Assembly: GCF_000003815.2 (NCBI RefSeq) | Contig: NC_049982.1 | Location: 5,423,105-5,487,104, forward strand | Reading direction: 5' to 3' | Length of the DNA: 64,000 nt | Origin: Branchiostoma floridae | Lineage: Eukaryota; Chordata; Leptocardii; Amphioxiformes; Branchiostomatidae | Part shown: positions 741 to 63,004 of the stretch, piece after piece | Position numbering within the stretch: position 1 is the stretch's first letter | Layout: every line of letters begins with the position of its first letter | The notes under the pieces: generated by a model | What the model saw: only the letters and a program-made list of their open reading frames with translations | What the model was told of the DNA's origin: nothing | The model's database searches: none | Program-made: the position numbers and the translations under genes

Positions 741-2090
741 CTATATGAGAACTGCTGAATTAGCTCTGGTGTCACGATTTGTCATCTTCAGAACCAGTCT
801 GATTAGTTTCACCAGCTGCTTCCGTCTTAATGTCTCATCCTTTGTTATGTTATCAAAGAACACATACCTGTCATGACACATCTTTAAATCATCCCTAAAT
901 TTTAGAGGTGCATCTGTGATGTAATCTTCCTCAGACTCAGTTAACTGGTCTTTGCCTGTGATAACCATAATTACATGGTCAGAGAATTTGTCTCCAAGGA
1001 TGCGCTTTGTAATGCTTGCCATTTTTTCATCATCTGCCCCATACTTGCCTCTTTTTGATATCAAAAGAATTGCATCAAAATCTGCTGACCTTTCTTGAAA
1101 CCACTTTTCAACTGTTGTTTCAGACTCCTCACAAGACAAATCTATACCTGGTGTGTCAACTATATTCATTGTCAGGCTTCCCACTTTCCCTCTGAACTGT
1201 TCACAGGTGTCTGTTTTGGATACAGTAGTGTCTGAAACTGTGAAAGTATTAGTGCCAGCAATGCTGTTTCCTGTCCGACTCTTACCAACCCCTGTTTTGC
1301 CCACAAGCAGCAAGTGAATTTCATCTTTTTCCTTTTCACCAAGTTGTGGCATTTTACAGACTGAAGAGAGGTCAGCAAGAGTAAACCTTGAAGCCCCCAA
1401 TGTACTGGACAGTTTTGAAATTACATCAATCATAGTTCCTGTGACAGTCACTCTGTCTGGGCAGTACTTTGTAATGCTCTTCATGGAGTCAGGCAACGTG
1501 GTCAAAAACTCTGGAATGTCCTCCTCTTGAGCATGTGTGACCACGATGACAAGATGCTCGTACAGTCCATCACCAAACAGCCTGTGGAGGGACTGGAACA
1601 CTTGGACCTCCTTGTCTTCATTCCTCTCGGAGTTGTTGTAGTCCCAGACCAGACAGATGGCATCAAAACCCTCAGGAACCATCTTCACAGCTCGAACCAG
1701 CTCCTCAAACTCATACTCTGTCATCCCTAGTTTCCCTCCTTTGGATACTCCAGGTTCATCCTCTACTGCCGTCCTTTGGGTGATGCCAGGGGTGTCGACT
1801 ACTGTCACATCAATACTGACTCCATCAACCTCATGGCTGCTGCTGCCCAGGCTGGACTTCTCTGTTCCTCCTTTCCTGGTGACTTTGAAGGCCTCCTGTC
1901 CCAGGATGATGTTACCTGTGTGGCTCTTGCCATTGCCCTTACATCCCACAAGTAGTAGGTTCAACTTGATGTCCGTAGGTACATTTAACTTATCTTGTGA
2001 AGGTTGGATGCTGACTATGTTGTCTTGCTTTAATGAGTTTGATGCTGGTTGACATGCAGCTTCTAATTCTTTAGTCTTTGTTTTGTTCAT
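741..2090 (-). CDS. AIG1/GIMAP-family GTPase with two tandem G domains (449 aa)
   Basis: Predicted GTP-binding protein of the AIG1/GIMAP family (septin/Toc34-related), which usually acts at membranes in immune-cell survival and pathogen response. The reading frame continues 12 bases upstream through a TTG, but the first ATG is at 2090. A good splice acceptor (pyrimidine tract then CCAG) lies just upstream at about 2104, so a 5' exon is likely. Domain 1 has the P-loop GCKGNGKS at about residues 49-56 and DTPG at about 99-102. Domain 2 has GKTGVGKS at about 264-271, DTPG at about 312-315, TGKD at about 378-381 and VFFDN at about 410-414. Domain 1 has no ordinary G4 motif; THAQEED stands in its place. 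It also carries an insertion of about 17 residues after DTPG that the two paralogues in this window lack. The protein ends soon after domain 2, without the C-terminal tail seen in them. Confidence 0.85.
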   Translation of the reverse strand: MNKTKTKELEAACQPASNSLKQDNIVSIQPSQDKLNVPTDIKLNLLLVGCKGNGKSHTGNIILGQEAFKVTRKGGTEKSSLGSSSHEVDGVSIDVTVVDTPGITQRTAVEDEPGVSKGGKLGMTEYEFEELVRAVKMVPEGFDAICLVWDYNNSERNEDKEVQVFQSLHRLFGDGLYEHLVIVVTHAQEEDIPEFLTTLPDSMKSITKYCPDRVTVTGTMIDVISKLSSTLGASRFTLADLSSVCKMPQLGEKEKDEIHLLLVGKTGVGKSRTGNSIAGTNTFTVSDTTVSKTDTCEQFRGKVGSLTMNIVDTPGIDLSCEESETTVEKWFQERSADFDAILLISKRGKYGADDEKMASITKRILGDKFSDHVIMVITGKDQLTESEEDYITDAPLKFRDDLKMCHDRYVFFDNITKDETLRRKQLVKLIRLVLKMTNRDTRANSAVLI

Positions 2091-2347
2091 GTTTAAGAAC
2101 AATCTGGTTGTTTGGAGGAAAGAAATAAGTTCTTGATATTTTATTGAAGATTAATTTAAGAACCTCTTTCTGTATGGTGTCGGCCTCAGCTCTGTAATGT
2201 GTACAAGAACAGGCTGCCACTTTCTTGAATCTGGAAGCATAAAGAAAATGATGAAAACAAAGTTTGTAATGGACTGCTCAGAGACTGTTGAGTAGTTTTA
2301 CATGTAAATGGACCAGGTCTGTGAATTTAAGTCCCCAGAGAATGAAC

Positions 2348-2359: not shown

Positions 2360-2484
2360 CCGAAAATAGTTTCATCAGGTTGGTAGAATATAGGATAAGG
2401 GAGAAATTCTTTGTACACAACCAGTGGGTACTTACATAGCTTACGTTTCACCATATTAAGAATTCGAAACATCTGGCAGAAGAA

Positions 2485-3852
2485 ATGTCCACTGTATTGA
2501 TTGAACAGGATGATGTATTCATGTCACATGACGTTGTGTCCCTCTTTACGAACACTCCCATCCCAGAGACTCTCAACATCATACAGAAAAGACTAGAAGA
2601 GGATAGGGATCTGAAGAGTCGGACGAACTTAGAGGTAGATGACATCATTGAGCTGCTTTCCTTCATCGTCACGACCACGTACTTCTCCTTCAGGGGTAAC
2701 ATCTACCAGCAGAAATTTGGGACAGCAATGGGGAGCCCGGTATCCCCGGTACTGGCAAACTTGTTTATGGAGTGGCTAGAACAAGAAGCCATTGCCACAG
2801 CACCCATCACATGCAAGCCCAAGTTATGGAAAAGGTATGTTGATGACGTGGCAGAGGTGGTGAGGAGAGGAGCCCAGCAAGAGCTCACAGACCACCTTAA
2901 CAGCATCGACCCCACCGGCAACATACAGTTTACGTATGAAGAGGAGAAGGAAGGCACACTACCTTTCCTCGACACCCTTCTAGTGCGTAAGGAGGATGGT
3001 ACAGTGAAACTTTTGGTGTACAGGAAGAGCACGCACACGGACCAATACCTAAACTTCCAGTCCCACCACCCTCTGCACCAAAAGTTAGGAGTTATCCGTA
3101 CCTTGTTGGACCGATGCAACACCGTCACCACTGAAGACCAGGACAAAGAACAGGAAACACAACATGTCAAGAGAGCCCTCACACGCTGTGGCTACCCTCA
3201 ATGGGCCTTCAACAAAGTGGAACAACAGAAGAAGAGACCGAAACAGAAAGAACTGAGCACTAAACAACAGGAAAAGTCGAAAGGTATGGTGATCATCCCT
3301 TACGTCAAAGGAGTCACGGAACCTTTGGAAAGGGTATTTCGGAAACACGGGATAGTCACTGCAGTCAAACCCAAAACAACACTGAGAAGTCTGTTAGTGC
3401 ATCCTAAGGACAAACAGGAGGACTTAGCCAAAACAGACTGTGTGTACAGAATCCCGTGCCAGAGCTGTGATCAGGTGTATATTGGTGAAACAGGAAGGAC
3501 TTTTGGGACGAGGTTAGAAGAACACAAGAAAGAAGCCAACAACATAGATGCCACAAGATACACAAGATCACAGAAAAGACTTGCGCTCAAAGAAGAAAAG
3601 AAGTCGGCAGTTACAGACCATATCGCCAGGAACAATTGCGTAATTGACTGGGAGGGGGCGAAGGTCATAGACAGGGAAGACAATAGGCGGGCACGGTGGA
3701 TTAAGGAGGCCATCTGGATAAGAAAGTCAACCCCAGTGATGAACCGGGACGAAGGGGGATACAAACTAAGCCACGTTTGGGATTGTTTTCTCACCGCAAA
3801 AGCGCCACCTACATCGGCTACATATAGCGGTGAGAAGCAGAACTCCAGTTAG
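2485..3852 (+). CDS. Penelope-like reverse transcriptase with GIY-YIG endonuclease (N-terminally truncated)
   Basis: The 455-codon frame runs without a stop. The reverse transcriptase has motif A (SHDVVSLFTN, residues about 14-23), the GTAMGSPVSP segment (about 79-88) and the catalytic YVDD (118-121). A GIY-YIG-type endonuclease follows from about residue 318 (VYRIPCQSC, then VYIGETGR and FGTRLEEH), including the Cys pair typical of Penelope elements. The frame is open upstream of the ATG for about ten more codons, up to the junction with the inverted terminal fragment, so this Met is probably internal to the original protein. Catalytic motifs look intact although the N-terminus is gone. Confidence 0.85.
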   Translation: MSTVLIEQDDVFMSHDVVSLFTNTPIPETLNIIQKRLEEDRDLKSRTNLEVDDIIELLSFIVTTTYFSFRGNIYQQKFGTAMGSPVSPVLANLFMEWLEQEAIATAPITCKPKLWKRYVDDVAEVVRRGAQQELTDHLNSIDPTGNIQFTYEEEKEGTLPFLDTLLVRKEDGTVKLLVYRKSTHTDQYLNFQSHHPLHQKLGVIRTLLDRCNTVTTEDQDKEQETQHVKRALTRCGYPQWAFNKVEQQKKRPKQKELSTKQQEKSKGMVIIPYVKGVTEPLERVFRKHGIVTAVKPKTTLRSLLVHPKDKQEDLAKTDCVYRIPCQSCDQVYIGETGRTFGTRLEEHKKEANNIDATRYTRSQKRLALKEEKKSAVTDHIARNNCVIDWEGAKVIDREDNRRARWIKEAIWIRKSTPVMNRDEGGYKLSHVWDCFLTAKAPPTSATYSGEKQNSS

Positions 3853-13559: not shown

Positions 13560-15212
13560 CTAAACAGCAGTACTATCAGAACTTCCCAGAGATCCTCGAC
13601 GATCGGGAAAGAACCATGATGATATAATGTTCTTGATTGTTTTGAACAAATTAACCCCTGAGTGGTCCATTTCTGCCACTTTCCGTTTGGCTTCAAGCTC
13701 TTGTTGTATCAGAGACCAAGTAGGGTGTTGTCTCTTTGTTTCTTCAAGGATTTCTTCCATATATCTTTTCCCCTCTTGGAAGAGATCATCAGTGTATGGC
13801 CCCCCGTTTTCAATCACTATTTCATCAATCATTTGGATGAGCTTAACTAGCTGTTGTCTTTTAAGTGTCTCATCCCTAGTTGTATTGTCGAAGAAGACAC
13901 ATCTTTCCCCACACTGTTTTAAGATTGTTCTCAAACTCTCTGGAGCTGACAGAAACTCACTTTCGCTCATTCCTCTCAGGTTGTCTTTTCCAGTAACTAG
14001 GATAATAGCATAGTCTACAAACCTGTTGCCAAACAAGTGTTGAAAGATGTTAATTGCTTTGGTTTCAGACTCTGTAAATCTGACTCTGCTGCTTATAACA
14101 ACCACAAGTGCATGAAGGCCCTCATCACCAAATCGTGTCACAATTCTACACAACTGTTGTGCGATCTCCTTCAAGTCATGGTTATCAGTGGAAAATACCC
14201 CTGGTGTATCCAACACTTCTATTTCTCTGTCTTCCTTCTCTCTATCACCAGAGGCACATACAGTTGTTATAGAGGATGCAATGTCTCCTACTTTGAAAGT
14301 GTTTTTACCAATAATGGTATTCCCTGTATGACTTTTACCAACTCCAGTTTTACCTATGATGGTGATGTTTAGCTTTCGTCCATTGTTGATTTGACAATTT
14401 TGAGACAAGTCTGACTCTATGTACCTTATTGACATACTCTTAAGCACACCCAAGATTCTGTTAACCTGTTCCTTATTTCCTGATGAATCCTTGCCAGGCT
14501 TATTTTCAATTGCAACTATGTGATTTGCCTTTTTTGCAGTTTCCTCCATGGCTTTAGGAAGTTCATTCCTGAATTCTGAAATGTCCTCCTCCTGAGCATG
14601 AGTGACCAGGATGACAAGATGATCGTACAGCCCATCACCAAACAGCCTGTGGAGGGACTGGAACACTTGGACCTCCTTGTCTTCATTCCTCTCAGAGTTG
14701 TAGTAGTCCCAGACCAGACAGATGGAATTAAAGCCCTCAGGAACCATCTTCACAGCTCGAACCAGCTCCTCAAACTCTGACTCTGTCATCTCCTGGGAGA
14801 CTCCGGGGGTGTCAACTACTGTCACCTTCCTGCTGACTCCATCAACCTCAAGGCTGCTGCTGCCCAGGCTGGACTTCTCTGTTCCTCCTTTCCTGGTGAC
14901 TCTGAAGGCCTCCTGTCCCAGGATGGTGTTGCCTGTGTGGCTCTTGCCATTGCCCTTACAACCTACTAACAGACACGACAGAAGGGAAATACCATCATCA
15001 AAAGTGATAGTTGGCTCACCAGAAGGAGAGCTTGTGGCAGGAAGATTGGATGCTGATGGCAGATTTGTGGGAGTTTTGGACTCCACAGGGATTGGGTCAC
15101 AGCTCTTCTTAGAAATGTCATCATCACTTGTCACTTGGCCATCTGCTTGTTCAGAGTCTGCAGAATGGTTTTTATTAAAATTCAATTCATTATCATTTTC
15201 TTCTTCTGCCAT
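13560..15212 (-). CDS. AIG1/GIMAP-family GTPase with two tandem G domains (550 aa)
   Basis: Single coding exon, starting at an ATG 12-18 bases after a possible splice acceptor (TTCTCAGCAG). A candidate donor (ATTACAG then GTAGGA) near 15486 suggests a non-coding 5' exon. An acidic, Ser-rich N-terminus of about 75 residues precedes domain 1 (P-loop GCKGNGKS 84-91, DTPG 134-137, THAQEED in place of G4 at about 204-210, IENK near 235). Domain 2 has GKTGVGKS 287-294, DTPG 335-338, TGKD 407-410 and VFFDN 439-443. The C-terminal 90 residues are charged and helical, with a possible amphipathic end (NLFKTIKNIISSWFF), which could bind membrane. Domain 1 is nearly identical to that of the neighbouring GTPase genes while domain 2 is much more diverged. 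Confidence 0.88.
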   Translation of the reverse strand: MAEEENDNELNFNKNHSADSEQADGQVTSDDDISKKSCDPIPVESKTPTNLPSASNLPATSSPSGEPTITFDDGISLLSCLLVGCKGNGKSHTGNTILGQEAFRVTRKGGTEKSSLGSSSLEVDGVSRKVTVVDTPGVSQEMTESEFEELVRAVKMVPEGFNSICLVWDYYNSERNEDKEVQVFQSLHRLFGDGLYDHLVILVTHAQEEDISEFRNELPKAMEETAKKANHIVAIENKPGKDSSGNKEQVNRILGVLKSMSIRYIESDLSQNCQINNGRKLNITIIGKTGVGKSHTGNTIIGKNTFKVGDIASSITTVCASGDREKEDREIEVLDTPGVFSTDNHDLKEIAQQLCRIVTRFGDEGLHALVVVISSRVRFTESETKAINIFQHLFGNRFVDYAIILVTGKDNLRGMSESEFLSAPESLRTILKQCGERCVFFDNTTRDETLKRQQLVKLIQMIDEIVIENGGPYTDDLFQEGKRYMEEILEETKRQHPTWSLIQQELEAKRKVAEMDHSGVNLFKTIKNIISSWFFPDRRGSLGSSDSTAV

Positions 15213-16850
15213 AGTTGGTCCAACTGCTGAGAACTATTTCAGTCCTTTAAGGCATGGTACTTGATGTTTTCCTGTTGTTCTGGTGTTTTGAAGTAGAATA
15301 GTGTCCTTTGTTGAGCCATTTAATGTTTCTTGAATGATGAGATTTCTGTCTGTAGATGGAGAGGATACAAAATTATTAAGTGTCAGAGACGTAGGTATGA
15401 CAAATTCCTTGTCTGCTATCGTTCCTGGTAAACCAGGTACATTTGATTTTGAGGTCTTGAAAGATTAGTTTCTTTATCTCCTACCTGTAATGTTGCTATC
15501 TGCCAGAATGTTAAACCATTTCAAAATGACCTGGAAGAACAAAATTTGTGCAATGTGTACATTGCAAAGACTTAAAGTTTGCTTCTAATTAGTTCTGTAG
15601 GTCTGCATTTTAACACAATGTAACAGTCAATGTGTTAGGAATGGCAAATAGCTAGGTGGGACTCTTTTTTTTCAGGAGACACAAATTATTTCCACAAAAA
15701 TTATCTTTGTCAAGAATACTACGTTTTTAGTTCCATGTATGTTTGTGTCTCAGTGTAATGAATAGACAGAATGAATCCGTAACTTTGTATGGACCTTACT
15801 TCTAGAATTACATGGCATGGATCAGCTAATTGGTTTAGATTTATTGTGTATGGCATGGGAGTCCAGTGCTGCAGTATGAAAAAACCTTGTAAGCCTTTGA
15901 CAAGACCAGAAATGCACACTATTTCACATTATCATTATGGGCCTTAAGAAAGTTCATGTTTAAATTGATTTTTAGTTTAATCCAGATACCATGGTACAGT
16001 AACCCTCCAAAATCTACGTTTTGGGGATTAGGTGGCCAAAAAAGAACAGGAATTTTTTCAACAATCATTCTACGGAATGGATGCAAAGGAAATTCATTTG
16101 CTGTGCCTCCAACAACCTGTGCTTGTTGGTTTTCTCATAAAGTATAGTTTAAATGATATCATTCCTTACACATGTACATCATCATGCAAAATCTATTAAA
16201 TGTAAATGTAAGAAATACTAATTTTTTCCTTATTGATATAATGTACAAATTGATCAGAGCTATAACTCACCATTAGAATTCAAGGCTGCATGAGATGTTC
16301 ATTTATAGCAATGTGATTGCAGCTGATTTTTTTTCAGTGGCTATATCTTCATAAAACAGCTCTCTACTCACCGCAGCAAAGCATGGAGAGGTACATTTCA
16401 GGTGAGGGCATATGGCTGAAAAGTCAATATTTGACACAGCAGGCTGGTTTCATGACTGTTGTTTTAATGAGTCATGCTGAGTCAGGAACTTAAGGCAGCT
16501 TAAGTCCAAACAGACTGTTAATTGTTAACCGAGCTGTATACTTAACAGATTGTTTGATTTATAGTCAGATGACAGATAAAGGGAACAATTCAGTTCAATT
16601 CCTTGGTTCTCAGATGTTGTACAAGAAAGAAGTAGGCAGGCAAAACAAAGTTTTGGCTCAGTCTTGGACAAGGAGGCAAAACATGTCATCTGCCATAATG
16701 TTCCAAAATATCATTGTCAATATAATATGCAATGTCATCTTGCAAGGGAGGCCTTGTCAGCCCCCATTTACTTGTTTCTAATGTCAGGTAACAGTGGATA
16801 AAAGCAACTTGCACAGTTGCAAGTTTAGTCTGAGAATACATGCACCACAC
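15213..16850. other. Intergenic region upstream of the second GTPase gene
   Basis: Contains a candidate 5' non-coding exon donor near 15486 on the minus strand. Nothing else is recognised. Confidence 0.3.
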
Positions 16851-22353: not shown

Positions 22354-24161
22354 CTAGAGCAAGAAGATGCGCTGTATTGTTTGAAAGAGTGATTTGGCAA
22401 TGCTTGTTTCATAATATTCATGCTCATTACTTGCTGCATATTGCCTTGCCCTGTCTACTAGGCTCTCCGATCTCAGGAAGTTAGCATGCTTGGGTGTGGG
22501 ATTCTCCACCTCTTCTCTGACGAATTCTTTTGGACCTTGGACATCCTTTGCCATTACCTTAAAGAGTTTTGTAATGATCCAATCAATGACCTTTGCACCT
22601 TCCAGAAAGAGTGTCTCATTGGGTCCTTGTCCGGTGTATGGACCCTTCCTCCTCTTTACAGCTTCTTGGGCCATTGTGATCAGCTTTGCCAGCTGCTTGC
22701 GACGTACTGTTGCATCCATTGTGACGTTGTCAAAGAAGATGCAGCGTTCCTGGCACTTCTTTAAAATGTCACTTAGTGTTTGTGGTGCTGATGCCAGGTA
22801 CTCCTCCTTGCTACTTTTCAGACTATCTTTCCCAGTTATCAGTACTACAGTGTGGTCCAGAAACCCCTCTCCAAAGACACGCTGGATATTCTTGAGTGCA
22901 TTGTCATCTTCCTCTGTAAACCTTGACATGCCGCTTATTACCAGGATTAGTGCATGGATACCATCATGGAATACAGTTGGTATTTTGCAGAGCTCCTCAG
23001 ATATTTTCTGTATCTCTTCCTTGTTTACTGTAGCAAACAGTCCTGGTGTGTCTAATATAGCTAGTTTGCTACCAACATCCTTCAGTGTTCTTATGTGGAA
23101 GTTACACTTTGTTGTGACTGTTGCAGCCACTGTTGCAACTTTGAAAACATCTTCACCAATGATGCTGTTCCCTGTAGAACTCTTCCCCACTCCAGTTTTG
23201 CCTATGAGCACCATGTGTAGATCAGCATTTGGGGGGATTTGGCACTCTTTGGAGAGGTTTGAAGAAGTGTACTTTGTGTCAGAGGTAGGAAAAAGCAACA
23301 GCTGACATGATGTTTCTCCTTTACGTCTGTTATCTATTGCAATCACAGTCTTTGCCTTGTCAGCGATTTGCTTCATGTTGACCGGCAGACCCTTGATGAA
23401 CTCTGGAATGTCCTCCTGCTGAGCATGTGTGACCAGGATGATAAGATGCTTGTACAGTCCATCACCAAACAGCCTGTGGAGGGACTGGAACACTTGGACC
23501 TCCTTGTCTTCATTCCTCTCAGAGTTGTTGTAGTCCCAGACCAGACAGATGGAATTAAAGCCCTCAGGAACCATCTTCACAGCTCGAACCAGCTCCTCAA
23601 ACTCAGACTCTGTCATCTCCTGGGAGACTCCAGGGGTGTCGACTACTGTCACTTCTCTGGTAACTCCATCTTCCTGAAGGTAGCTACTGCTGCACAGACT
23701 GGACTTTCCTGTTCCTCCTTTCCTGGTGACTCTGAAGGCCTCCCGTCCCAGGATGATGTTTCCTGTGTGGCTCTTGCCATTACCCTTACAGCCTAGAAGT
23801 AGGACTGAAGTTTGTTGCTGTGTAGAAGTGGGAACTGCACTGCTTTCGTGCTCCTTGATGTCCTTCTGTCTTGTTTCTCCCGGTTGTTGTGCTGGAGAAA
23901 GTTGCTGTAGGGATGTGGTGGTTCTGTCTCCTTGGACCTCTCTTGTTTCCATGGCCTTGTGTGTTTGGTCCTTGAGCTTTCTCTCTAGATCCTTGTTTTC
24001 TCTTGCCTTCTGCCATGCCACTTGCCAGATGGGACTGAGTTGCTTCATGGCCCTCATGGTAGAGTGCAGCTTGTTTGTACTGAGGTGAAGTGCATCCAAC
24101 GGTGTAGTTGCCATCGTTATTGGTTGCCTTCTTGTGGTGAAGACTGGATGCTCTGCTGGTG
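22354..24161 (-). CDS. Exon 4 of the fusion gene: tandem AIG1 GTPase domains
   Basis: Terminal exon of 1808 nt, with acceptor TTTATTCCAG before 24161. The first G domain has GCKGNGKSHTG, DTPGVSQEMTES and THAQQED in the G4 place. The second has GKTGVGKSSTG, DTPGLF, TGKDSL and IFFDN. A C-terminal extension of about 110 residues ends in an aromatic, hydrophobic tail (SLFQTIQRIFLL), as in the 13560-15212 paralogue. The frame also opens at an ATG at 24174, but that ATG lies inside the intron. Confidence 0.88.
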
Positions 24162-27100
24162 CTGGAATAAACAAAAAATGACATAGGCAAAAACAGAATT
24201 AAGGTACCTGTAGTAATACTATCTTCCATTAGCTATGACACTAAGCATAAGACTGTAAAACTAACATTTTGCTACTTAAGTTGGTGTTAACCAGTTTATG
24301 GTAAAATTGCCAAATTCATGAGAGCACTGACAGTCACTGACTTCATCCTCAAATGTAGATAGAGCACACTACTTTACTGCTCATAAGTCAATGATGGAAT
24401 AAAAGGGTTCCAGAATCTATGAAATGTTGTGTTGCATGACATCATATGTACTTACCACCAGTATGTCCACCCCTGATGAGGTAGTCAAGAGACCACTTCC
24501 AGTGGTCAGGATCAATGGTTGTCTCGATGAAGATGTCGTCACCCATCAGCTGTATGATCTCTTTGGTAAGCATAGATTCTCGTAATGTGATGGCCAACTT
24601 GCCATTCCTGTGCTCAAACCAAAGCTTGCCCAAACTATTCAAATCAAAACAGCCTACATTGAAGATAACACTACCTTTCTCTACATTATGGACTTTGATA
24701 CCATATACTTCCTGTATATCTCTGACTCCTTTTGAAAGATTAAGAAGATCATCAACAGTTTTGATTTGATCCTTAAGCTTCTTTATCAATCGAATAGTTT
24801 GATCTGTCAACCTGTACTGTGTTGATCTTATGATTCTTTTTTGTGCTTTTCCAAACTTCCTTATGTCCTTAGCAGTCTCCACCCGCTCTTCAACTTTGAC
24901 AAATATGTCTGTAATGATTGACAGAACTGGCATTTGTTGTGTTGTATTTGCAGCAAGATGATGTTGAAGTGGATGTGGATCTGAAAGACATTAATTTTGA
25001 TGTCAAACACTTTGTAACAGTCACAATGTATGATACGTTAATTTATATATGTGATTGACAAAATTGAGTTGCCAGAAGACAAATGATGCAGTGAGATTAT
25101 TTTCTATATCAGGATAGAGGCTCCAATCTGACAGCACTGTATGTAGTTACTGATCAAAGTCCTCAGTCTACTGCATACTACGAGGGTGAGTCAGAAAGTA
25201 ATTCAAGTGGTTTCATAACAGAGTCTTTCTTTGATCGAATGAGTTGAAATTTGGCACAAAGGTTAAGACATCTCTCCTCTTGAGACTGAAACATCTAAAT
25301 TTGTTGCTCATTGTTTTATGAGTGACTGAGCTGCTTTCAAGGTGACCACACCCTTGGTATCTCGTCAAATGAAAAGTGGGGTCCAATTAACGTACAATTA
25401 AGAATTTCCCTAAACCAATTTTTTTTTATTGTAGGAGACTAAGCCAGCACATGCAATAAGCTGCATTTCTCTGTAAGCCACACGCTTATTTTCAACACTG
25501 AAATCCGAGCGGTATTTCTTTTTTCGTTGCTGGTGTAGAGTGAGGTATACGCGGTCTTCAGGGTCATGAGATCTGCAGTGTTATGATTAAAACTTTCTGT
25601 AGCCTACTTTTTCATCAACAAAGAGAAATGAAACTTAGCACACTTTTTAGTCTTTAAACAGTTAATAACTGTGTAAAGTTTCGTTTCTTTTGGTAAACGG
25701 AAAAGCAGTCTTTAAATTAACCAACAACTCACGAATTCGTGTATAAATCCAATCGCTCTATAACGCAACTTACTGCATCCTAGCAGCTGTAAATAAAGAA
25801 CCATTACGAGTTTAGAAATGAAAATTGGTACGCAACCTATAGAGACATTTGTTATCATACATATATAATTTCAACCTCCTACAGTGATTTTCAGTGGGTC
25901 AGATTTAGAGGAATCGATAGTCTGACAAACTACCAAGGGCGTGTTCATCTTGAAATCAACTCAGTTGCTCATAAAATGATAAAGACCAAATCTAAAACGT
26001 TCAATCTTAAGAGGACATATATCTCTACCTTTATGCCAAATTTAAACTCAATTGATTAAAAAACGAGTCTGTTATGAAACCACTTGCATTACTTTCTGAC
26101 TTACCCTCGTAGCAAATGGACAATATTAAAAGACAGAACTTAACTTTTATTCCTGTCAATTAAGATTAATGGATTGCAATTGATTTGGAATTTAGAACTC
26201 ACACATTCCAAACATCCTGATCAAGGCCTTTGTAGACAGAAACTTTGGTCGGAATATCAATTGGTAGATTGATATCTCTTTCCTGACATATACACCGCAT
26301 GTACATATAGGACACACCTTATATACCAAAAAGCATAATGAGCTCATCAACTCTTTGATGAAGTACAGAGCTGACATTACCTAATACACTCTTGGCAAGC
26401 TCAAAATATTTACTAAGAATTAGCCTGAATCATTTCATTAATGATAAAAAAAGCACAATCTTGAAAAACACAATCTGAATGTTCTGTGAATCTTACTCAT
26501 GTCTAGTGTGAACTTAGTGTAATTAATTTACATAGAACTTCACTATCATTATTGCACTACGTTTGTTCTACACTGGACTTCCATGATGTGCCATGTTGGA
26601 TATGAAAGCTGTTTATGACAACCTTAATGCTCACCTGGCAGTTCGTCAGCAGCATCCTTATGTTTTGAATCAATGAGTGCTTGCTTTAAGACTGAAAGAG
26701 TTGCTGCCTTTCCTTTTATTCCCACCCACTTTTCAAGGACATCTCTGCATCCCGCTGTTGCGTCTCCCAGTCTGTTTTTCTCTATTGTAGTTATGTCTGA
26801 ATATTTTACCCCAAGATGGTGACCGAGCTGTTGCCAGTCATGTTTGACAAGGTCCACAACAACGTTGAAGTATTTTCTTACTCCTGTCACAAAATTAAGG
26901 AAAACGTTGCATGTCAGACGTCTTAATTTATGCAACTAAGGTTTCCTGATATCAATAAGTAATAAGATAACATGATGCAATCATTAGAAGTTACTACAAT
27001 CAGACATGGTACATCTGTATGGGGTTGGTGCTGTCTCTCTATGATTTTGCCAAATAAAGATATCAACCCTTATGTCAACCATTGTGTCTCTGTCTTTACT

Positions 27101-27181
27101 AGTTGTCTTGTTAGTTAGTAGTATTATCTCTGTGTGACGAATTGACAGCTCACCAGTGTCTCCATTTTGTCCAGATGCCAT
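22354..27181 (-). CDS. Death domain - TRADD-N-like - tandem AIG1 GTPase fusion gene (4 exons, 869 aa)
   Basis: Four exons join in frame with GT-AG sites: 27181-27154 (28 nt, ATG), 26883-26635 (249 nt), 24980-24456 (525 nt) and 24161-22354 (1808 nt, stop). The total is 2610 nt. Every intron is phase 1. The protein starts MASGQNGDTG, followed by a death domain (about 11-92), a helical linker, a TRADD-N-like domain (about 195-261), a Pro/Gln/Thr-rich linker and two AIG1 G domains (P-loops about 391-398 and 588-595; TGKD about 710-713). Death and TRADD-N domains assemble death-receptor-type signalling complexes. AIG1/GIMAP GTPases polymerise in a GTP-dependent way. The combination suggests a GTPase-gated adaptor in immunity or cell death, which is inference. 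A 5' UTR acceptor (TTTATTTCAG) lies just upstream of the ATG. No transcript evidence is available. Confidence 0.8.
24456..24980 (-). CDS. Exon 3 of the fusion gene: TRADD-N-like domain
   Basis: 525 nt, phase 1 at both ends (acceptor GTCTTTCAG before 24980, donor GGTG then GTAAGT at 24455). The exon starts with PHPLQHHLAANTTQQ, then a charged helical stretch (about 50 residues with repeated K/R/D/E). A TRADD-N-like fold follows: GSVIFNVGCFDLNSLGKLW, then EHRNGKLAITLRESML, then GDDIFIETTIDPDHW. The pattern (beta strand, helix with W, RxG+L, second strand ending ID..W) fits the TRADD N-terminal domain family, but I judge it by eye only. Confidence 0.65.
25181..26109. mobile_element. Mariner/Tc1-like non-autonomous element in intron 2 of the fusion gene
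   Basis: The ends CGAGGGTGAGTCAGAAAGTA and its near-complement (TACTTTCTGACTTACCCTCG) are flanked by TA at 25179-25180 and 26110-26111. The homology between arms extends about 190 bp inward (ACTGAGCTGC..TCAAGGTGACC against its complement), so the terminal repeats are long. The 930-bp body has no mariner transposase frame. Confidence 0.75.
26635..26883 (-). CDS. Exon 2 of the fusion gene: death domain
   Basis: 249 nt, phase 1 at both ends (acceptor TTTTGTGACAG, donor CCAG then GTGAGC). It encodes an 82-residue six-helix death domain, recognisable from HDWQQLGHHLGVKYSDI, then CRDVLEKWVGIKGKAATLSV and LKQALIDSKHKDAADEL. The hallmarks are the W-x-x-L-x-x-x-L-G of helices 1-2, W-x-x-x-x-G-x-x-A-T-x-x-x-L of helices 4-5 and D-x-A-D-x-L at the end. 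The exon is a clean single-domain cassette. Confidence 0.85.
27154..27181 (-). CDS. Exon 1 of the fusion gene: start codon exon
   Basis: 28 coding nt (MASGQNGDT plus one base). The donor is ACTG then GTGAGC. A splice acceptor TTTATTTCAG ends about 10 bases upstream of the ATG, so a non-coding 5' exon is expected further upstream. Phase 1 matches exon 2 exactly. Confidence 0.7.
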
Positions 27182-50866: not shown

Positions 50867-53148
50867 TTGAGGATGCTGAGTTCAGTCAAATTTTGGACTC
50901 GATGATGAGTGAAACGGAGTCCAAGAGCGAAAATGGTGTCGGCAATTTGGTGGACTATTTTGGGGCTGCCGACACGAGCGATGACTCTGGCGATGAAGGC
51001 GATCAGGAAGAAGAGCAGGAAGGTAAGCTGTCATTTTTGTTGCACCAAAGTGGCTGATGACTAACGGCTTTTCTACAGTCATGTAGTTTACATTTATTTT
51101 TCTCTCCACCATTCATGGGGAGGAGGGGCACATAATGGAAGAAGACCTTGCAGTTCTGAGAGTTATGCCCAAAAGCAGTAATTACACAAGCAACTGGATA
51201 TGATTGTGGAAATGGTCAGACGTTTCAGATAACATCTGTTATCTATCCCCAGTGACACTGACATTCCAAAATCATATCCAATTGCTTGAGTAACTGCTTT
51301 TTGGCGTATCTTACTACCTGGATGTCTAACCTTCATCGAAGTTCTGAGAGTTGTTTAACAGCTGCAAACTTTGTGAAATTTTACACAATATTTCTCAAAG
51401 CTACATATTGTTCAACACCAAAATGTGATGATTACAACAGTTACTGTATTTGTGTTTATCTTTCTTCCTCCCCAGAATCAAGCAGTGACAACAGTGATGA
51501 TGATGACGACGATGATGATAATGATGATGACAACAATAAGGATGGTGCAGACTCTCATGGTGTTTGGATGCCAATCATAAAGGAAGACCCTGGTCCTGAT
51601 CCGATCCCTTTCACTGCAGTTCCAGGCATCAAGCACCCTCCCCCTCAGGACTCCAAACCCATTGATTACTTCAATCTCTTCTTCACGGCAAACATTGTCG
51701 CTAAGATTGTCTACGAGACCAATCGTTACGCCCAGCAGTGGATCGTTGCGCACCGGGACTACCTTCTTGAGAAACAGCGCTCCGTCGTTCACCAGTGGCA
51801 AAAGATTGGCCAAACTACAGCAGAGGAGTTCAGGGCATTTCTGGGAGTTGCTCTGAACATGGGGCTGGTGAAGAAGTCCACCATGAGCAGCTACTGGGAC
51901 AGGGCTCACAAGTGCCAGGCAACGCCGTGGTTCACTGAGCATTTTTCGAGGGATCGCTTTGAATTACTCCTAAAATTCCTTCACTTCAACAACATTGCTA
52001 GGCAGCCTCCCCCTGCTGACCCAGCACACAAGCTGTACAAGATAAAGCCCATTGTGGAGCACTTCAACAGGGTCTTCCTCCACCACTACCATCCTGGCAT
52101 GGACATTTCAATCAATGAGAGCTCAATGGGATTCAGAGACCAAGCACCCCATCCGACCCAGTTCAAGGCCCAGAAGCGCCATGCCAAGTTTGGAAAGAAG
52201 CTGTGGTGCGTGTGTGACAGCCTGACTGGCTACACCTCCTTCTTTGAGGTTTACACGGGAAGGGATTCGGCAGCGCCTGCTGACCCCCACGGGTCGATGT
52301 ACGCCATGGTGATGAGACTGATGACTGCCTGTGACTTCCTTCACTGCGGACACCACGTTGGAATAGACAACTTCCTCTCCTGTCCTGATCTCTTTTTTGA
52401 CCTGTACAAGCAGGGGACAACGGCTACTGGAACAGTCAGGTCGGACAGAAAGGGCCTGCCCCAACCAGCTGTCAACCAGAAGATTAAAAACAACCAGACT
52501 GCCGAGCGACGCAAAGGGCCCCTCCTCTGTGTGGTGTACAAGGATGGGAGTAAGTTTAAACAGCCAGTTGTCCTCCTGAGCACCGCTGTCGCCGGGGGAT
52601 CCCAAGCTGTTGTTACACAGAAGGGTAGGCAGGTGCAAAGGCCCAAGGTGGTCGTCAAGTTCAGCAAGGCGGTAGGAGGTGTCGACTTGGGCGATGCCAC
52701 GCTCACGAATCTCTCAGATAGGCGGACCATGAAATGGACCAACAAGGTGTTCTTCGCGATCTTTGGGAGGGCTGTGCTGAACAGTTTTGTCCTGTATGAC
52801 CAGCACAGCTCCGATAACCCCAAGCTCAGCAGACACCAGTTCATGTTGCAGCTTGTGGAGAGTCTTGCAGGCAGCTACTTCCCACCCAACGCTGTGCGCC
52901 CACCGCGCCGTACACCAAGCCAGATCAGACAGGACAGGGAAATGCCAAATGTGCAAGGAGCTTCTGCCCAGGTCGAGTCTGGTACTGCAGGAGGCCCAGG
53001 TGGCCAACATTGGCCCAGGAAGCTGCCGAAGGGCAGGCTGAGAAACTGTGTGGCAGGTCACCCGACCAGGACCAGAAGCTCGTATGAATGCCCAGCCTGT
53101 AATGTGGGGCTCTGCATCAAGTGCTTTCCTACTTATCACGAAAGATAA
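50867..53148 (+). CDS. piggyBac-transposase-derived gene (PGBD-like), spliced
   Basis: Two exons are visible: 50867-51022 (acidic, phase 1 at both ends) and 51476-53148 (stop). An upstream start exon is not identified. The acidic, Asp/Glu/Ser-rich N-terminus leads into the piggyBac DDE domain (IDYFNLFFT.., FRAFLGVALNMGLVKK, SRDRFELLLKFLHFNN, GKKLWCVCDSLTGYTSFF, VYTGRDS). The C-terminus is the cysteine-rich domain (NCVAGH, YECPAC, LCIKCFPTYH). The catalytic aspartates expected are Asn (codon 52114-52116 in INESSMGF), Asp (52366-52368, GIDNF) and Asp (52684-52686, GGVDLGD). Loss of the first Asp should abolish transposition. No TTAA-flanked terminal repeats were found. Together with the intron this favours a domesticated or dead copy. 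Neighbours: BTB-ZF upstream, Crypton-like gene downstream, same strand. Confidence 0.82.
51165..51305. mobile_element. Short inverted-repeat element in the PGBD intron
   Basis: AAGCAGTAATTACACAAGCA..CTGGATATGATT pairs with AATCATATCCAATTGCTTGAGTAACTGCTTTTTGG. About 140 bp, non-coding. The same arm sequence recurs in the array downstream of ERI1 (60985-61415). Confidence 0.6.
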
Positions 53149-61648: not shown

Positions 61649-62644
61649 TTAGTTACTGGAGGCCAGTTTTGCCCTCGGCGGAACAACAGGCTCCACCCTG
61701 CCATTGTTCAGACACTCGTTAACCCGCAGCTCGCAGCCGTCCTGTATCAGCCGTCCGGCGATGCGAGCGATGTTGACCGCGTCGTCCCGGCCGCTGTGCG
61801 GCTTCCCCTCGAACTGCAGCCCCAGGCTGGCCAGCATCTCCTGCAGCTTGGTGCCGCCCCGCGTCTGGTAGAAGTTGGCGAAGTGCTTCTTCACGTTGAT
61901 CCACCTGCGGAAGGGCCGCGGGTACGGGATGCCGCAGTACAGGCACTGCTGGTACAGGAACCGGCACATGTCCCAAGGGCCGTCCGTCGCCACCGCGAAC
62001 CTGGAGTGCCCCATCCCGTACCCCTTACTGGACATCCAGTCCAGCACGTCCTCCAGAACCTGGGGAAACTCCGGAGCCTTGTCCACCATCTTCTGCGTGA
62101 TTCCTGTCAGTTTTGTGCAGAAGGGAGTCAGTTTGGGGTTGATGGTGGGTCTGCAGTAAGAGTGGAACTGGTCCTCGACTATGAGAGTCTCCGTGTTGAC
62201 GAGCAGGATGGGGAACTCGATGATCTCGTGCTGGAAGTCCGGAGGGTTCTCCTCCATGCACGTCGCCTCGAAGTCGATGACAAGGAGGAAGTCGTAGTGT
62301 TCGGACTTGATGCCGACAACTTCCGGGGTAAGCTTCTCCTTCTTGTAGTAAGACTTCAGCCGCTTCTTCAGGACTTCCTTCACGCCTCTCGTCTCCAGGT
62401 GCAGCTCCTCTAGTTTCTGCCGCACCTCCTCCTTGTTCATCCGGTTGATCTGTCCGTTTGTGAGGGAAAGTTCCCTCAGAACCCCATCTCCACCTCCTCC
62501 TCCGCCCCTCCCCTTGCCTGTTTTGGTGGAGTTCTCCTTCTCGTCTTCGTCGTTTCCGATCATCTTGGAAGGCAAAAGAAACGATAAGTACAGTAAGGTA
62601 AACACAAAAATCAAACCGCCGACCAAAACGATCTCGTTCAGCAT
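61649..62644 (-). CDS. ERI1: ERI1-type 3'-5' exoribonuclease, intronless (331 aa)
   Basis: DEDDh exonuclease that trims histone-mRNA stem-loop ends and 5.8S rRNA and limits small RNAs. Positions are counted from the ATG at 62644. A SAP domain lies at about 67-105 (INRMNKEEVRQKLEELHL, TRGVKEVLKKRLKSYYKK). The exonuclease starts VIDFEATCMEE at about 121 (catalytic Asp, Glu), has LTGITQKMVD at about 180, TDGPWDM at about 219 (Asp) and KPHSGRDDAVNIARIAGRL at about 284 (His, Asp). All catalytic residues are present. The first ATG, in a weak context, adds a hydrophobic stretch (VLVGGLIFVFTLLYLSFLL) not expected in this family. The ATG at 62563 (MIGNDEDE) has a better context and may be the true start (304 aa). 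Vertebrate ERI1 has several introns, so this copy may be a retrogene or may have lost introns. Confidence 0.85.
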   Translation of the reverse strand: MLNEIVLVGGLIFVFTLLYLSFLLPSKMIGNDEDEKENSTKTGKGRGGGGGGDGVLRELSLTNGQINRMNKEEVRQKLEELHLETRGVKEVLKKRLKSYYKKEKLTPEVVGIKSEHYDFLLVIDFEATCMEENPPDFQHEIIEFPILLVNTETLIVEDQFHSYCRPTINPKLTPFCTKLTGITQKMVDKAPEFPQVLEDVLDWMSSKGYGMGHSRFAVATDGPWDMCRFLYQQCLYCGIPYPRPFRRWINVKKHFANFYQTRGGTKLQEMLASLGLQFEGKPHSGRDDAVNIARIAGRLIQDGCELRVNECLNNGRVEPVVPPRAKLASSN

Positions 62645-62699
62645 TCGGACGGGATGAAATCGCGCCACAAACTGCGGGGAAAAACAAGATTTTCCTCCG

Positions 62700-63004
62700 A
62701 TTTCTTTTCCGCCATTTGCTTTGAAATTTTATGCGAGCAGTCCATTCTAGTGGGATGATATGTAAGTAGTCGTTTTCATAAATAGTACATATGACAGAAA
62801 AAATAGAATACAAGAAAGATTTTGACTTTAGAATTTTATACATATTTTGTTATCATCGCAAAAATATATCATATTGTGGTATCTAGTATGACAAAAAGGG
62901 GTAGAAAGGTTTACTCTTTTTCGCAACTACCCTTCTGAATAGAATAGAACTGTCCAACGTAGCAAGTCTCGCGAGATTTCCAGATAACATTTATCGCGGG
63001 GGCT
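62700..63004. promoter_or_regulatory. Divergent promoter region with TCTCGCGAGA element
   Basis: The palindrome TCTCGCGAGA at 62967-62976 is a known TATA-less promoter motif (BANP/Kaiso-type). CCGCCATTTGC (62708) and CGCCATTTCGC (63017) resemble YY1 sites. It lies between ERI1 (minus) and a plus-strand 5' exon, which suggests a bidirectional promoter. Confidence 0.55.

Follow-up and report, generated by a model that had tools for sequence, protein, structure and literature searches.

In lancelets, the closest described counterparts of the gene reported here are the cephalochordate expansions of DEDD2-clade TRADD-N domains, which number 46–71 copies according to passages of Kaur et al. 2021 (PMC8195603). 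As portrayed there, the expansions share a constant region made of a death-like and a TRADD-N domain with variable flanks, fusions of TRADD-N to AIG and GBP GTPases are named, GT4 is reported in front of TRADD-N, and the death-like domain precedes TRADD-N both in DEDD2 and in the invertebrate expansions. Lancelet proteins with CARD plus AIG1, with HINT and with tandem AIG1 domains are reported in parts of a second study (PMC12373286), proteins with a death domain and AIG1 appear in passages on the snail Biomphalaria glabrata (PMC7053062), and expressed amphioxus hybrid genes, for example death-NACHT and death-caspase, are mentioned in an excerpt of another study (PMC2575513).

The stretch analysed here, called the window, comprises 64,000 nucleotides of Branchiostoma floridae (C4:5423105-5487104; the assembly has 431 contigs and 513 Mb). 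On its minus strand we rebuilt from the sequence a gene of four exons (28, 249, 525 and 1808 nt), which are read in a single frame of 2610 nt including the stop codon and specify 869 amino acids; this reproduces the product that the sequence-only reading had put forward. The three introns (270, 1654 and 294 nt) are of the GT-AG type and all of phase 1, splitting a codon after its first base, with the donors GTGAGC, GTGAGC and GTAAGT and the acceptor ends GACAG, TTCAG and TCCAG. The four-exon structure of this gene for a death domain (DD), a TRADD-N-like domain and two AIG1 domains is well supported, as judged from the DNA. Chance in-frame joining of the exons was ruled out by the clean sites, the single phase and a sibling gene with the same plan. 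The features are collected in Table 1. Intron 2 also harbours a 190-nt inverted repeat (window 25178-25367 and 25923-26112, 80% complementary, 555 nt apart) that resembles a non-autonomous DNA transposon bearing long terminal inverted repeats.

Table 1. Features of the DD–TRADD-N-like–AIG1–AIG1 gene and of two further twin-AIG1 genes, in window coordinates
Feature	Position	Strand	Basis
Exon 1: start codon, 28 nt, MASGQNGDT and phase-1 overhang	27154..27181	-	In-frame ATG followed by a GTGAGC donor
Exon 2: death domain, aa 10-92	26635..26883	-	Pfam Death
Intron 2, 1654 nt; contains inverted-repeat element and 2 AATAAA	24981..26634	-	
Exon 3: TRADD-N-like, aa 93-267, extra N-terminal helices	24456..24980	-	Relatives and TRADD-like_N family link
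TRADD-N-like core of exon 3 (input to second model)	24463..24774	-	
Intron 3, 294 nt; without AATAAA, ATTAAA or TATAAA on coding strand; 1 AGTAAA, 1 CATAAA	24162..24455	-	
Exon 4: both AIG1 G domains plus the C-terminal tail	22354..24161	-	Pfam AIG1
First AIG1 domain: G1 GCKGNGKS, G3 DTPG, THAQ at G4 position	23317..23808	-	82 bits, motifs
Second AIG1 domain: G1 GKTGVGKS, G3 DTPG, TGKD at G4 position	22636..23217	-	177 bits, motifs
C-terminal extension with a short, hydrophobic and probably amphipathic end (SLFQTIQRIFLL)	22354..22635	-	
Twin-AIG1 gene of the same tandem array, no DD/TRADD-N exon found upstream in window	13560-15233	-	
Twin-AIG1 gene of the same tandem array, no DD/TRADD-N exon found upstream in window	741-2150	-	

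The death domain and the twin AIG1 part, both claimed earlier, were recovered by Pfam profile searches far over the curated cut-offs. Death (PF00531) matches residues 12–91 with an E-value of 3.4e-13 (50 bits) when residues 1–94 are scanned alone, and scores 45.6 bits within the whole protein, above the curated cut-off of 22.6. The death domain of exon 2 has at least 150 places in the genome, itself included, and the best other among the matches listed is 47% identical. AIG1 (PF04548) covers two stretches of the whole protein at E 1.6e-74 (250 bits), again above its curated cut-off; the separate scores of the two domains are given in Table 1. A G1 P-loop and a G3 DTPG motif were found in both domains, and G2, the conserved box and the G5/IAN motifs are named as AIG1/GIMAP criteria in passages of PMC7053062. 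The nearest PDB sequences overall are GIMAP4, GIMAP7, GIMAP5 and GIMAP2, which align to the second AIG1 domain. The first domain is matched by PDB chains named T7I23.11 (3bb4 over residues 383-553); we take these chains to be Toc33-type, and other presumably Toc-type chains match the second domain. The usual G4 motif of GTPases is NKxD-like, and THAQ is found also in plant Toc GTPases; with THAQ in place of that motif, the first domain has an uncertain nucleotide preference. Some paralogues have tails that look, by eye, like the hydrophobic stretch at the C-terminus, for which a membrane role would be a guess.

The TRADD-N assignment of exon 3 is the weakest of the three domain labels. Scanned alone, exon 3 reaches 17.2 bits (E 0.0044) against Pfam TRADD-like_N, and inside the whole protein 14.4 bits (E 0.035); all its single-sequence scores lie between 14.4 and 18.4 bits and so below the cut-off of 23.7, which is a detection threshold and no structural criterion. 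Because the cut-off is not reached, the domain is called TRADD-N-like throughout. The low scores are what would be expected if exon 3 were an unrelated alpha+beta domain resembling TRADD-like_N by chance, and the comparison of a 26-row profile of the exon 3 family with the sequences of solved structures points the same way: the TRADD chains 1f2h (E 1.0) and 1f3v (E 1.2) came only fourth and fifth of eight, in a fitting register but outranked by adiponectin and two other unrelated chains. Since these matches are non-significant, they are not counted as evidence for TRADD-N. The classical TRADD_N model gave no match to the exon 3 core at E ≤ 0.1, and was matched at that level by 4 of the 26 family rows (best 0.014). 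Structural comparison of the predicted model of exon 3 likewise returned no significant match.

Against a chance resemblance stand the relatives of exon 3. Nine strong ones, 28–32% identical in the alignment, were found in the genome, and TRADD-like_N is matched at E ≤ 1 by eight of the ten aligned sequences, the window exon included (best 6.6e-4). The window exon, used as query, finds places that pass the TRADD-like_N cut-off themselves, e.g. C7:5224127 (E 3.2e-4; 26.3 bits), and hhalign of the ten relatives against six genome sequences, picked because they pass TRADD-like_N, gave p 2.5e-7 and a probability of 93.4. A G-S/C turn motif is present in 25 of 26 aligned rows (G in all 26, followed by S in 14, C in 11 and A in 1; GS in the window) and lies between strands 27-32 and 37-41 of the predicted model. 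In the TRADD-N superfamily, according to passages of PMC8195603, a tiny residue plus Ser (or Cys) marks the turn that links strand 2 to strand 3; these passages also tie TRADD-N to the ACT and RRM-like fold, and the structural neighbours listed for the exon 3 model include ACT-type regulatory domains. An unrelated domain is, in our judgement, improbable, and membership of exon 3 in the TRADD-N superfamily is probable. The earlier claim of a TRADD-N-like domain was thus borne out through the profile-profile and family links and the turn motif, and fell short where exon 3 is scored singly against the Pfam cut-off.

Six tandem AIG1 pairs lie on the minus strand of C4:5388-5447 kb, three of them inside the window, and the window gene is among these three. 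In a scan of the window and of neighbouring C4, two of the six pairs have a TRADD-N exon upstream and one has a DD exon; for the other four, neither exon type turned up in the stretches searched, from which C4:5402001-5405199 and 5414001-5415199 were left out. Since the sets behind the scan models contain the window exons and, in the TRADD-N set, also that of the sibling, these exons match by construction. Matches on C13 aside, a single other DD match appeared (E 0.34, within the sibling's AIG1 exon but in a different frame), and this was taken as noise. On the plus strand, beside an AIG1 gene, the window also contains a reverse-transcriptase-like frame at 2440-3849 (RVT_1 24.2 bits, under the cut-off of 29.6), whose C-terminal part looks GIY-YIG-like, as in Penelope-like elements. 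A long open frame at 51262-53145 on the same strand matches a transposase domain (DDE_Tnp_1_7, 1.5e-71), presumably of piggyBac type, and a minus-strand frame at 61652-62728 joins a SAP domain to an RNase_T exonuclease and, as we assume, resembles ERI1-type exonucleases.

The sibling gene lies about 51 kb away at C4:5387905-5394435 and encodes GT4, TRADD-N, a coiled coil and two AIG1 domains in one frame with phase-1 introns. Its product has 1391 or 1373 residues, set by the last acceptor, and more upstream exons are possible. The first exon matches the Pfam family 'GT4 in conflict systems' at 7e-58, and its AIG1 part shares 53% identity with the AIG1 part of the window gene. At the sequence level, the pair seems to exemplify clearly how one GTPase end can carry different fronts within a gene cluster. 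A tree of TRADD-N exons places the window exon on a long branch, away from that of the sibling, a position that is weakly supported (78/78) and carries a long-branch warning; since the two exons do not group, the TRADD-N + AIG1 fusions of the two genes may have arisen separately.

The cluster bears also on whether the four exons belong to one gene. They might instead form two transcription units, namely a DD–TRADD-N protein ending just past exon 3 and a separate twin-AIG1 gene starting from an in-frame ATG in exon 4 (MATTPLDAL). If exon 3 is read on beyond its donor, a stop follows within four codons (ORF 24442-24990), intron 3 contains one AGTAAA and one CATAAA, which are weak poly(A) signal variants, and the sparse occurrence of DD (1/6) and TRADD-N (2/6) at the cluster pairs in the stretches searched would suit such a division. 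However, intron 3 is only 294 nt long and free of AATAAA and ATTAAA, the splice sites and frame are clean, and in the sibling, too, TRADD-N precedes twin AIG1 in a single frame, which makes two units quite unlikely. A young shuffled fusion without function, open merely by chance, would agree with the finding that 6 of 12 annotated GIMAP genes of B. floridae are dispensable, i.e. present or absent between individuals (9 of 13 in B. belcheri), as stated in parts of PMC12373286. We consider this highly improbable given 2610 nt of open frame with intact nucleotide-binding motifs, and given the family-wide residues retained in the long-diverged exon 3.

The sequence-only reading pointed out that the order of the domains is reversed relative to TRADD, which loses weight as a special feature in a genome-wide count. 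Among 105 TRADD-N places, 20 have a listed DD within 3 kb, and every one of these 20, the window pair included, has it on the same strand and 5′ of TRADD-N; a death-like domain ahead of TRADD-N is also described in passages of PMC8195603. DD-then-TRADD-N is therefore the normal order in this genome. The 105 places comprise all 35 rows of one search and 78 of 96 of another, the 18 lowest rows having been dropped beforehand, with overlaps merged. The 187 DD places comprise 150 rows of a first search and 37 of 150 of a second, picked by eye as non-overlapping; 150 of 208 and 150 of 588 candidates were scored in these searches, and the DD-paired TRADD-N places are at least 20 of 105. Two TRADD-N places on C215 share one DD, and naive binomial values for the order were left unused because they ignore tandem duplication. 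Widening the distance to 8 kb, the nearest listed DD was upstream on the same strand for 30 of the 105 places, downstream on the same strand for 4 and upstream on the opposite strand for 1, and 70 places had none. A dense array of TRADD-like_N lies at C17:18.3-18.9 Mb, where ten have a listed DD within 3 kb upstream, some within a few hundred bases. Outside this array, among 55 TRADD-N places, the DD is 5′ in 10 of 10 listed pairs.

The partners of TRADD-N vary. Related TRADD-N exons lie 3′ of DED at C13 and C19 and 3′ of GT4 at C19:13.72 and 13.73 Mb, and the C13 relative lies 5′ of a coiled-coil exon that is similar by eye to the sibling's. Along one strand of C13:20592-20601 kb, a death domain, a coiled-coil-like frame, DED, TRADD-N and a second coiled coil follow each other, as one gene or two. 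The genome also codes for CARD with two AIG1 stretches (C9) and for AIG1-Hint. In seven TRADD-N exons inspected, six starts and six ends were visible and all fit phase-1 sites; for the DD exons, the nearest AG, by reading, is a phase-1 acceptor in 10 of 12. Such phase-1 boundaries of both exon types are the expected trace of exon shuffling.

What, then, might the protein do? In the reading that we prefer, the locus is a single four-exon gene for an intracellular immune or cell-death adaptor assembled by phase-1 exon shuffling, in which GTP-driven assembly of AIG1 would cluster the death domains; we put its probability at roughly 0.55. A TRADD-N exon with phase-1 edges would sit between exchangeable fronts (DD, DED, GT4) and ends (twin AIG1, coiled coil), and further exchangeable ends around TRADD-N are reported in passages of PMC8195603. 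When bound to GTP, the twin AIG1 unit would self-assemble, perhaps on a membrane via the tail, and gather several death domains, which could seed a death-domain complex with adaptors or caspases; the TRADD-N surface would recruit a TRAF-like partner, and GTP hydrolysis would take the assembly apart. Precedents exist for the single steps: GIMAP2 dimerises on GTP binding and membrane-bound GIMAPs are proposed to form scaffolds, according to parts of PMC8201404, and TRADD-N binds the MATH domain of TRAF2 and the death domain of TRADD those of TNF receptors, according to passages of PMC8195603. Combined, these precedents suggest that twin AIG1 units assembling under GTP would draw death domains together and set off a signalling complex. 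The architecture is read most sensibly as an immune or cell-death scaffold, and a GTP-controlled polymerising one is plausible by analogy with vertebrate GIMAPs.

The opposite polarity is also conceivable, with the GTPase part holding the protein in a survival mode and the DD soaking up partners instead of firing. Vertebrate GIMAPs favour lymphocyte survival in the account of PMC8201404, as far as its relevant passages go, and Pfam finds no caspase or other known effector domain in the protein; the DD front, on the other hand, is common to a large family predicted in immune and apoptotic signalling (passages of PMC8195603), and we hold a restraining decoy to be unlikely. The preferred adaptor reading can be extended, rather doubtfully, to a lancelet cassette system, in which a phase-1 TRADD-N exon would join interchangeable sensors or adaptors (DD, DED, GT4) to switches that are likewise interchangeable, the window gene being a GTP-gated signalosome. 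It might then act as a GIMAP counterpart of the inflammasome, with GTPase assembly, rather than a STAND ATPase, nucleating death-domain filaments, and the GT4 sibling, whose front is enzymatic, would share this GTPase switch. Were the fusion expressed, GIMAP-type GTPases would be directly linked to death-domain signalling in one chain, and the notion that GTPase assembly triggers death signalling would become testable in a single protein, the action of vertebrate GIMAPs being still unsettled. The window gene and its GT4 sibling are relevant, moreover, to the diversification of immune genes in lancelets; the general idea has already been published.

Compared with the described systems, the window gene is less isolated than had been supposed. 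The sequence-only reading knew of no described protein of this kind; the class is published, in passages of PMC8195603 and PMC12373286, and what stands of the claim is that the exact order DD–TRADD-N–AIG1–AIG1 was not seen in the titles and abstracts listed by literature searches, which did not extend to the supplementary tables of PMC8195603. Vertebrate TRADD resembles the window gene in combining a TRADD-N-type domain and a death domain in one protein, but in the opposite order and with no GTPase, and its classical TRADD_N model is without a match to the exon 3 core at E ≤ 0.1. A vertebrate-type TRADD orthologue was ruled out by the order DD, TRADD-N-like, AIG1, AIG1 together with this unmatched model. 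Vertebrate GIMAPs share the AIG1 G domains and supply the closest PDB sequences (GIMAP4, 7, 5 and 2), and GIMAP8 has three G domains, but no death-fold or TRADD-N parts are described for them in the relevant passages of PMC8201404. The AIG proteins of Biomphalaria glabrata are alike in their N-terminal death domain with AIG1, some with dual AIG1, and unlike in that TRADD-N is not mentioned in the passages of PMC7053062 that deal with them. The CARD+AIG1 and tandem-AIG1 GIMAPs of lancelets (parts of PMC12373286) similarly place a death-fold adaptor in front of AIG1, although the CARD-AIG1 frame on C9 has CARD instead of DD and gave no TRADD-N match in the frame scanned. Closest are the lancelet expansions in the passages of PMC8195603, with their death-like domain, TRADD-N, variable flanks and AIG fusions, and with GT4–TRADD-N relatives in this very genome and cluster; they differ in that their death-like part is usually DED, whereas the window gene has DD and a tandem AIG1 end. 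The likeness to these DEDD2-clade expansions is one of domain arrangement. Provided that exon 3 is TRADD-N-like, the window gene fits the lancelet family of shuffled death-like plus TRADD-N genes, with the DD directly 5′ and a variable end, and it looks like one more combination in an already described family of shuffled immune genes.
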